A stretch of 40,838 bases of DNA from Prevotella sp. (GTDB lineage Bacteria > Bacteroidota > Bacteroidia > Bacteroidales > Bacteroidaceae), in contig JAFSRY010000093.1 of the NCBI GenBank assembly GCA_017445845.1, positions 1 to 40,838 on the forward strand, in the 5' to 3' direction. Positions 38,875 through 40,408 of the stretch are shown here, in pieces. The stretch's first letter is position 1. Each line of letters opens with the position of its first letter. The translations under genes were made by a program, and so were the position numbers. A model generated the notes under the pieces. The model searched no databases. It had not been told where the DNA came from and worked only from the letters and a program-made list of their open reading frames with translations.

Positions 38875-38882
38875 TAACTTTG
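38875..38882 (+). promoter_or_regulatory. -7 element of the candidate ncRNA promoter
   Basis: TAACTTTG fully matches TAnnTTTG. The first base-paired segment of the ncRNA starts 5 nt later at 38887, so the transcript would begin directly at the stem. No -33 TTTG at ideal spacing was found. Confidence 0.65.
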
Positions 38883-38886
38883 CACC

Positions 38887-39241
38887 CGCAATCCCGACCC
38901 ACGCTGTGCCTGACCCGCAAAAGAGGGAAGGAGGGACGTAGTCGAGGGTAAGGGATGCGCTACATATTGAGAAGTGTTTGCTAAAGCTTTGGCTTTGTTA
39001 TCTTTGAACGTCGGAAATTCAAACGTATAACGCAAGGGCATAGCAGAGGTAGATACTACGGGTAGGTATAGAATATGCTGCTCGTTAGTGTGCCGAGGGT
39101 ACGTGTTACCCTCCAAGCACACTTTTACGAGTGCAATATATACCGACAGCGTGGGTGTCAAGTTCTGTTTGCAATGTTATACAGGTTTCCGACGACCTAA
39201 AGAGAAGAGCGAGCAGAGGCAAGATGCCCCGCCTTCTTTTT
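38887..39241 (+). ncRNA. candidate structured non-coding RNA, about 355 nt, with own promoter and terminator
   Basis: No protein-like frame is convincing here, but the structure is rich. A 5' stem pairs CGCAATCCCGACCC (38887-38900) with GGGTAAGGGATGCG (38946-38959). A second hairpin pairs GTTAT/TTTGAA (38997-39008) with TTCAAA/ATAAC (39018-39031). A long nested hairpin spans 39065-39144: GGTATA with TATACC, GCTCGT with ACGAGT, GTGTGC with GCACAC, and GAGGGTA with TACCCTC around a 5-nt loop. A terminator hairpin follows at 39203-39237 with a U-tract. A Bacteroidota promoter lies just upstream. The promoter-to-terminator layout fits a Bacteroidales-specific RNA such as the Bacteroidales-1 motif; identity is not shown. 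It lacks recognised SRP, tmRNA, RNase P or 6S signatures. Confidence 0.65.
39203..39241 (+). terminator. intrinsic terminator of the candidate ncRNA
   Basis: AGAAGAGCG (39203-39211) pairs with CGCCTTCT (39230-39237) with one bulged A; an inner GGCA/TGCC hairpin sits in the loop; TTTT follows at 39238-39241. Confidence 0.7.
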
Positions 39242-39550
39242 GTGTAGTCCGAAACAGTCAACACTATAACAAGCAAGTACCGCCACACCAAGGGCATCGG
39301 CGACGGCCAGAGAAGAAAACGGAGGAAATGAGCATGCGCCGACTCCTTGGATTTCATCCGACCATTTTCACGCTCGGCAAAACAAGCCCGCTTGTTTTGC
39401 TCTCGCTTAAGCAAATGGTTCTTCACATAGCCATCTGGGGTTTGCTGTTGCTCGTGCCACAGCCTCTCCTATTCGCTCTTCATCTATTCACCTAACACAT
39501 TCAGCACATGACGTAACGAAATAAAAACAACACTCCCCCCGAATACATCG
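39242..39550. other. non-coding stretch with one strong inverted repeat
   Basis: No supportable gene. The main feature is a perfect 11-bp inverted repeat, GCAAAACAAGC (39377-39387) and GCTTGTTTTGC (39390-39400), with an outer pair ACCATTT (39361-39367) / AAATGGT (39413-39419). Long open frames across 39088-39495 (plus) and 39106-39426 (minus) run through the ncRNA and lack protein-like features, so they are taken as chance. Confidence 0.6.
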
Positions 39551-39692
39551 TTCTTTGAGGCTTCGCCTCGAAGATCTCAGCGCTCGGGAGATTTCAAGCA
39601 CGCTTGAATCTCCACTCGCTAAATCGATCTTTGAGGCTTCGCCCGAAGAACGGCTTCGCCTCAACAAAGCCAGAAAGCAAGCTTTCGCTTTG
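39547..39692. repeat. cluster of nested hairpins with a 21-bp direct repeat
   Basis: Four inverted repeats follow one another. GAGGC-TTC-GCCTC is at 39557-39569. GGAGATTTCAAGC pairs with GCTTGAATCTCC at 39587-39614 (one bulge). CTTTGAGGC (39629-39637) pairs with GCCTCAACAAAG (39658-39669). CAAAGC-CA-GAAAGC pairs with GCTTTC-GCTTTG at 39665-39692, sharing bases with the third and so excluding it. ATCGNTCTTTGAGGCTTCGCC recurs at 39547-39567 and 39623-39643. The cluster lies just upstream of the toxin-antitoxin promoter. Confidence 0.8.
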
Positions 39693-39751
39693 TATTCGGC
39701 TTGCGCGTTCTTTGACATATTGAGACCCGACGGATATTTTTCGAGTAGAAA

Positions 39752-39818: not shown

Positions 39819-40100
39819 ATGAGTACAACAGCACTGAACGGACTGCGCGACTATCTTACCGGCACGCTTTCGCCAGACAACATGATTTGGCTGGCCACCC
39901 AGTTGACCGAGTATGCCAAGAAGCAACAAGAACCGCCTTTCCGGCGATACACCATGGACGAGATCAACGCCATGCTCGACGAGGCAGAGGCCAATTTTGC
40001 AGCTGGCCGAGGCATACCCGATGAAGAGGCTTGGGACGATTTGAACGAAGAGATAGCCCTGTTAGAAAACGAACAGCACGAAATGGCAGAGGCAATATGA
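39819..40100 (+). CDS. antitoxin of a ParE/RelE-type toxin-antitoxin pair
   Basis: The 93-residue acidic protein has an N-terminal half (TTALNGLRDYLTGTLSPDNMIWLATQLTEYAKK) typical of a family of Bacteroidota antitoxins, then a C-terminal toxin-binding part (TMDEINAMLDEAEANFAAGRGIPDEEAWDD). This pattern and the position directly before a RelE/ParE-like gene support the call; it has no obvious classical DNA-binding motif. The stop overlaps the toxin start by 4 nt (ATGA), so the two are translationally coupled, with antitoxin first as usual. It probably neutralises the toxin by direct binding and may repress its own promoter. Confidence 0.8.
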   Translation: MSTTALNGLRDYLTGTLSPDNMIWLATQLTEYAKKQQEPPFRRYTMDEINAMLDEAEANFAAGRGIPDEEAWDDLNEEIALLENEQHEMAEAI

Positions 40101-40408
40101 AAGTAGAATGGGACCCGAAGGCAAAAGAGGCCAGAAGCCAAGTAGCCGACTACATACGCCGAGAGTTCGGAGCCAAGCGTAAGATACGGTTCTTACAGGA
40201 AGTACGTGAGACAACAAAGAAACTGAGCAAGGCCCCATACATCGGGCAGATTGACCCTCTCTTCGCCGACCGTGCAATGACCTACCGCAGCGTTATTGTA
40301 AATGGCCTGAATAAGATGGTTTATTGCATTGACGGAGACACTGTTCGCATCGCTGCTTTCTGGGACACCAGAAGCGAGCCTGAAGGACAGGCAGAGCAGG
40401 TAAGGTAG
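40097..40408 (+). CDS. ParE/RelE-family toxin
   Basis: The 103-residue protein starts at the ATG overlapping the antitoxin stop; a longer frame from 40031 would overlap the antitoxin and is unlikely. The fold is recognisable: basic N-terminal strand and helices (KVEWDPKAKEARSQVADYIRREFG), a YIGQIDPLF stretch, then YRSVIVNGLNKMVYCIDGDTVRIAAFWDTR, the typical ParE/RelE C-terminal sheet. Whether it targets DNA gyrase (ParE) or mRNA in the ribosome (RelE) cannot be decided, since the diagnostic residues differ between members. It is followed by a strong terminator. Confidence 0.8.
   Translation: MKVEWDPKAKEARSQVADYIRREFGAKRKIRFLQEVRETTKKLSKAPYIGQIDPLFADRAMTYRSVIVNGLNKMVYCIDGDTVRIAAFWDTRSEPEGQAEQVR

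Follow-up and report, generated by a model that had tools for sequence, protein, structure and literature searches.

What is made from positions 38887–39241 of the window, as we call the whole 40,838-nt stretch of Prevotella DNA that was analyzed? An earlier note, made from the sequence alone, had read this interval as a candidate structured noncoding RNA with a promoter, three hairpin domains, and a terminator. The RNA is indeed structured and has its own promoter; however, it most probably serves accessory genes as their 5′ leader and is not a free-standing noncoding RNA gene with a simple terminator. On balance, we favor the reading that it is a cis-acting two-state attenuator (riboswitch-like) of accessory operons in Bacteroidales, one that probably acts as an expression switch for the gene behind it.

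Promoter, Extent, and Coding Potential

38875–38884, + strand: promoter box, Bacteroidota-type −7, TAACTTTGCA
38887–39310, + strand: the whole leader RNA, from homologue alignments (the promoter gives the presumed 5′ end and hairpin C the 3′ end)

The interval 38887–39241 folds with an MFE of −134.8 kcal/mol (z −6.1), and none of 100 shuffles is equally low, which bears out the claim that its pairings exceed chance. Its borders were drawn too tightly; the interval is structured, but the element extends to about 39310 and takes in a strand behind the U-tract (H3) and a hairpin reaching about 39306 (hairpin C). The −7 box was correctly recognized: a TA correctly spaced 5′ of TTTG is kept in 37 of 38 aligned homologues, as compared to 9 of the 118 plus-strand TTTG sites in the window. 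A protein-coding frame, which the note had also judged to be lacking, is rejected. In the three frames in turn, 1, 2, and 0 of 38 homologues are free of stops from strand F to strand T, and the segment lengths between homologues represent all residues modulo 3. The nested hairpin at 39065–39144 proves to be real and conserved. The adjacency of greA looks incidental, no upstream gene family recurring in three or more of 52 loci. Features beyond the earlier description are a pseudoknot helix (D), a helix that joins the 5′ region to bases just past the U-tract (H), and hairpin C downstream.

Family Identity and Distribution

Searching the whole window against Rfam 15 gives no covariance-model match at the gathering score; around the element there are just two chance-level matches up to an E value of 5, and at 20 loci with homologues no match to the element. 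Bacteroidales-1 (RF01693), which the earlier note had offered as a candidate class, occurs in the same genome at G000:C2:22944-23132 (101 bits). It resembles the leader in being structured and from Bacteroidales; it differs in lying at a separate locus, and its model has no match to the leader element. With scores below gathering and RF01693 elsewhere, assignment to any Rfam family is rejected, and the note's other option, something new, holds in the sense of an RNA family without an Rfam 15 match. No description of the leader RNA was found in the literature, with supplements outside that search, so that an unnamed entry in a candidate list (e.g., PMC8040213) is possible; the accessible portions of PMC8040213, PMC11109978, PMC2864571, and PMC7593976 do not describe it.

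Homologues are numerous. From the core (alignment A2) of 19 of 22 aligned homologues, a covariance model of 117 positions, R1, was built that omits strands T and C; three of the 22 (L015, L018, and L020) are absent from the first alignment, A1, and RNAalifold applied to that alignment recovered part of the fold only. The genome itself carries a second copy in contig C89, found by sequence search (78% identity across window positions 38960–39248), and a third at C54:16405–16518, found with the covariance model; the fourth match listed is an antisense echo of the third. In a DNA search of 100 genus genomes, 27 matches, two of them in the own genome, extend past the promoter, mostly at 68–78% identity; the remainder cover about query bases 1–43 only and are promoter matches. 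Within the genus, R1 matches 115 of 299 genomes, and within the family 72 of 301, spread over 17 of 30 genera; it also matches 6 of 295 genomes in the order sample, the own genome among them, and 1 of 296 in the phylum sample, which is the own genome. The largest number of matches in any genome is 7, with antisense echoes possibly counted. Among the loci that a pattern scan of named genomes listed, 80 were searched with R1, and 38 of these match (37 strong; L092 only at E 0.004). Among the matches listed, the titles of all R1-positive loci name Bacteroidales, and the other loci are chance pattern matches, many from other phyla. Most R1-positive loci belong to MAGs under the names Prevotella, Prevotellaceae, or Bacteroidaceae, many from ruminants; the cultured isolate Xylanibacter muris is also among the carriers, with its copy in NZ_JABKKF010000019.1 (L086).

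A mobile or self-splicing element spread through transposition would account for several copies per genome (at least four distinct places in G071 and in G246), the patchy distribution, and the 3′-truncated copies. However, the own-genome copies match solely across 38960–39248 at 78%, the element has no ORF of its own, and 48 of 52 loci have a same-strand frame behind it. The plasmid and phage collections searched hold no match to the element, and none of the 20 viral contigs carrying the pattern was confirmed, leaving a mobile, phage, or plasmid origin unsupported by these searches and transposition barely credible. Separately, five loci (L015, L018, L020, L224, and L232) have their 3′ part swapped for unrelated sequence at differing points, as decayed or recombined leaders.

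Fold and Covariation

38896–38909, + strand: strand F, partner of M and putative antiterminator strand
38960–38964, + strand: strand H5 (CUACA), pairs with H3; register read from the window sequence
38975–38987, + strand: hairpin P2, preceding the conserved U-rich GCUUUGUUUUUG (GCUUUGGCUUUG in the window copy); weak in the window, with 3/5 pairs
39001–39017, + strand: 5′ strand of helix D (UCUUU at 39001–39005, CGUCGGAAA at 39009–39017); register from the window sequence
39065–39144, + strand: core nested hairpin with alignment helices K1, K3, and K4; contained in model R1
39148–39159, + strand: strand M, pairs with T (terminator-like) or F
39164–39217, + strand: helix P9 (39164–39174 with 39207–39217), stacked within M:T; 95.0% paired, 9/11 in the window
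39186–39203, + strand: 3′ strand of helix D (UUUCCGACG at 39186–39194, AAAGA at 39199–39203), inside the P9 loop
39223–39232, + strand: strand T (GAUGCCCCGC), pairs with M or the hairpin C loop
39234–39241, + strand: U-tract directly behind T
39243–39247, + strand: strand H3 (UGUAG), just behind the U-tract; register read from the window sequence
39280–39306, + strand: hairpin C, stem by eye (CCGCC with GGCGACGG), loop GGGCAUC at 39292–39298

The loci came from 37 of the 38 R1-positive pattern-scan loci, 21 more, and the window, giving 59, which removal of 7 duplicates reduced to 52. Alignment A3 contains 38 of these leaders. It omits L224 and L232 as truncated, L118 and L096 as near a contig end, and L240, L126, L148, L117, L152, L136, L090, L104, L098, and L130 as divergent or having uncertain 5′ ends or insertions. 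The earlier note had suggested looking for compensatory base changes in homologues, and these are plentiful. With a structure derived from one sequence (L144), 89.7% of 2370 cells are paired, as compared to 81.6% in shuffled alignments, and 210 cells carry changes on both sides, as compared to 67; none of 500 shuffles reaches either value. Sliding the partner columns by 1–3 lowers pairing to 35–58%. The leader is therefore a structured RNA with compensatory changes beyond both shuffled and slid controls.

The long-range helix D has double changes in 15 of 16 pairs, and because its 3′ strand sits in the P9 loop, it constitutes a pseudoknot. A kissing-loop reading of AACGUCGG/CCGACG was replaced by this longer helix, since the flanks pair too. 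Helix H, which joins CUACA in the 5′ region to UGUAG behind the U-tract, is 86.0% paired, and the stem of hairpin C is 79.8% paired with covariation in 5 of 5 pairs. The 14-nt stem that the note had placed at once after the promoter stands in part: 38896–38909 does pair with about 39146–39160, but as a 250-nt long-range pairing of F and M.

The window copy of the leader looks intact. In its own register, D can form 9 bp (CGUCGGAAA/UUUCCGACG) plus 5 bp (UCUUU/AAAGA), H can form 5 bp, and C can form; so can M:T (7/7), T:C (7/7), F:M (8/8), K1 (7/7), K3 (7/7), and K4 (4/5). In A3, the row for the window is out of register in D, H, and the C stem, where it scores 3/8 (D2), 5/8 (D1), 4/6 (H), and 1/5 (C stem).

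Alternative Pairings of T, M, and F

Strand T has two partners. In the window, T (GAUGCCC at 39223–39229) pairs with M (GGGUGUC) through two wobble pairs among others and is exactly complementary to the loop of hairpin C. Across A3, 98.9% of M:T cells are paired, as are 98.1% of T:C loop cells, 4 of the 7 pairs in the latter showing changes on both sides; both pairings use the same T bases and are thus mutually exclusive. For M:T, 352 comparisons of own with cross pairing came out in favor of the own pairing 203 times and never against it. The T:C figure is favored by the exclusion from A3 of L126, L148, and L240, in which no convincing T partner was found; L104, L098, L152, and L130, also outside A3, keep a 7/7 partner. 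An automatic check of the 52 loci, in which T was chosen through its match to M and 51 loci could be evaluated, finds a downstream T partner at 7/7 in 37, 6/7 in 10, and 4–5/7 in 4 (L126, L148, L091, and L118, the last at a contig end). Some 6/7 scores arose because the automatically chosen T was off by one base, and the 7/7 partner in L224 is due to chance because that copy is truncated.

Because relatedness inflates shuffle tests, members from other families of the order were examined. R1 gave 10 matches there, of which the 8 that had loci were all inspected. A downstream stretch complementary to T at 7/7 is present in six, each singly modest evidence, with 27–113 of 2000 shuffles equaling the match; in L241 and L249, a full complement was not found downstream. 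Four of the six complements are unlike the common Prevotella one: GACUUCC/GGGAGUC, AAUGCCC/GGGCAUU, GAAACUC/GGGUUUC, and GAUUCCC/GGGAGUC. M pairs with T at 7/7 in four of the eight and at 6/7 in the other four.

The M:T stem is GC-rich, stacked on P9, and abuts 6–10 U per 12 nt in all 38 leaders. Together, M:T, P9, and the U-tract look like an intrinsic terminator whose loop is large. Of the terminator that the earlier note had described, the U-tract is there but a local hairpin is not; a scan for local terminators found none, and a long-range stem of this kind is invisible to a simple scan. Pairing of F with M is the weakest of the switch helices. It reaches 87.3% of cells, with double-change pairs not above shuffles (128/500). 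By group, the value is 95.0% (201 cells) in 26 leaders and falls to 68.9% and 71.1% in the two restriction/methylase subgroups, both comprising 6 leaders and 45 cells. The low values in these subgroups mean that an F:M antiterminator is not general.

We propose the following course of events for an attenuator. Transcription would start at the TAnnTTTG box, and the nascent RNA would fold into a pseudoknotted domain. In the OFF state, T, M, and P9 would form a GC-rich stem against the U-tract, acting as an intrinsic terminator. In the ON state, F would capture M, leaving T unable to close the terminator, and polymerase would read on. Upon read-through, T would pair with the hairpin C loop just before the start codon, locking the ON fold, and this pairing may also influence translation. 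The family, its covarying structure, the competing pairings of T, and the placement ahead of genes are results of the computation; we infer termination, this direction of the switch, and its control by a signal, for which a small molecule, a NusG-type factor, or the state of the polymerase or ribosome are putative candidates.

T:C cannot itself stop termination because hairpin C is made after the U-tract, and this order makes translation control a serious rival. Here the same leader would not terminate at the U-tract; rather, the choice between T:C near the start codon and M:T would set ribosome access. Such control is consistent with T:C being kept as well as M:T in the 38 aligned leaders, with hairpin C lying close upstream of the start codon, and with helix H tying the 5′ region to bases past the U-tract, so that the fold reaches beyond the supposed terminator. 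However, a translational switch does not need a U-tract, and the GC-rich base of M:T abuts one in every aligned leader, even where T varies. We regard translation control as rather unlikely and retain attenuation as the preferred reading.

Position Relative to Downstream Genes

The conserved placement and orientation of the RNA relative to the following gene fit a cis-regulatory 5′ leader. With the window's doubtful ORF counted, 33 of 52 loci have a same-strand ATG frame (50 codons or more) that begins 58–85 nt behind the T region; among control frames reading away upstream, 3 of 49 fall within 58–85 nt. The start lies at 260–326 nt in 7 loci, all of the C5-methylase subgroup, and elsewhere in 8; the 4 loci with no following frame are L096 and L118, near contig ends, the truncated L224, and L126.

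39328–39495, + strand: 55-aa ORF in the usual place of the controlled gene, at a distance of 85 nt; probably not a real gene here

Beyond its own copy, the 55-aa ORF is matched in 7 of the 99 remaining genomes; most of these matches span about residues 7–36, in frames of other lengths. Given these partial matches, the leader in the window may have lost its gene and been left an orphan. A trans-acting small RNA would make the terminated leader itself the product, with the gene behind it read via leakage, and an own promoter, a U-tract, and a window copy without a convincing gene would all suit it. Yet fixed spacing to varied genes and the pairing of T with hairpin C past the U-tract both tie the RNA to an mRNA, and we hold a trans-acting product to be highly improbable as compared with an mRNA leader.

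The surroundings of the window copy have features of their own. Part of the 55-aa frame (39346–39435) recurs in several genus genomes in other frames and is perhaps an intergenic repeat, and short direct repeats around GGCTTCGCC occupy 39540–39720. At 39819–40405 lies a toxin–antitoxin-like pair, made up of a 93-aa ORF that matches no family and a ParE-family toxin (PF05016, 1.7e-6). The pair has its own TAACTTTGCA promoter box, which is 77% alike to that of the leader over 44 nt.

Genes Behind the Leader

The 48 first genes were classified by Pfam for 46 proteins (L130 and L136, which cluster with L104, being excluded) and by PADLOC for 9. DNA methylases or restriction/helicase proteins make up 15 of the 48 (12 by Pfam, L098 by PADLOC, and L130 and L136 via clustering with L104). 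A further 15 are polysaccharide or acyl-group genes, comprising Acyl_transf_3 (3), GDSL (3), MBOAT (2), GT4 (2), a polysaccharide deacetylase, hexapeptide transferases (3, one just below the cutoff), and L222 via clustering. The others are CotH (2), a NusG paralogue, a radical SAM protein, and a TPR protein, and 13 have no family above the cutoff. Lipoproteins are also among the kinds of genes downstream, and L005 is followed by a capsule-type sugar transferase (by eye). In L243, a leader from another family, two ORFs follow that we take to be HxsD-type-like and radical-SAM-like, in that order.

Of the 9 aligned C5-methylase-subgroup loci, 7 (L094, L108, L119, L137, L091, L124, and L161) carry some 200 nt of additional conserved sequence between hairpin C and the gene. 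By eye, a plain intrinsic terminator closes this stretch, making it a second attenuator-like element in tandem with the first, which fits the theme of attenuation.

Six members precede NusG paralogues, four identified by phmmer (L009, L016, L068, and L240, the last by Pfam too) and two by eye (L013 and L023). According to the available part of PMC7819879, UpxY proteins prevent premature termination in the 5′ leaders before upxY. The leader could, by analogy, be an RNA platform for antitermination in the UpxY/LoaP style, recruiting a NusG paralogue so that polymerase reads long operons. The paralogues directly behind the RNA accord with this, as does L240, which by eye runs on to a capsule-like cluster with flippase-, pyruvyltransferase-, and glycosyltransferase-like genes; the LoaP leader hairpin, as far as described in the part of PMC12691694 available, offers a precedent. 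The wider survey argues otherwise. With carriage of the RNA taken from the R1 match lists, two or more NusG-family hits occur in 6 of 12 RNA-carrying genomes and in 5 of 12 genomes that lack it; G525, a single contig, carries the RNA but has one NusG hit; and R1 finds no match in 14 other PF02357 loci. Moreover, in several loci (e.g., L088, L156, L226, L227, and L233), the second ORF is on the other strand, leaving no long operon. A NusG paralogue as general partner is unsupported by these counts; a cognate paralogue accompanies one subgroup, and we judge a NusG platform improbable as an account of the whole family. In L254, a NusG-paralogue gene of G117, the 5′ part of the leader (the CUCACGCC strand and a P2-like hairpin) seems, by eye, to be fused to the gene without the core.

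Comparison with Known Systems

Known leader RNAs mostly precede metabolic genes and sense the product, and control of phage- and host-facing genes in Bacteroidales is usually ascribed to invertible promoters and UpxY. We tentatively suggest, as a proposal somewhat short of an even chance, that the leader represents a new class of large pseudoknotted RNA switch, a portable module placed before restriction–modification, helicase-type defense, capsule-modifying, and surface genes, through which one signal sets a phage-facing regulon. This signal is perhaps linked to infection, envelope, or polymerase state. If true, a complex leader on defense, capsule, and surface genes would amount to a common RNA-level control of phage and host encounters. 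With the predicted switch strands named, the question of ligand or factor is directly testable.

LoaP-dependent leaders (dfn/mln, Bacillus) also combine a structured leader with an intrinsic terminator before accessory operons, judging from the available part of PMC12691694; as described there, they use a small UNCG hairpin, whereas the RNA here is pseudoknotted and about 400 nt long. A required NusG paralogue was not found for the new RNA in the 12 + 12 genomes compared. The UpxY-controlled leaders of capsule operons in Bacteroides fragilis, likened here from their description in the available part of PMC7819879, share the setting in Bacteroidales, the place before capsule genes, and premature termination within the leader. 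The likeness extends to the six members of the new RNA that head NusG-paralogue loci; however, most members precede other genes, and the 14 PF02357 loci lack the RNA core. Riboswitches and attenuators use mutually exclusive stems. The new RNA resembles them in its alternative pairings, its U-tract, and its fixed place before the start codon; it differs in having no known ligand or leader peptide, in the great variety of the genes it precedes, and in the extra downstream partner of T.
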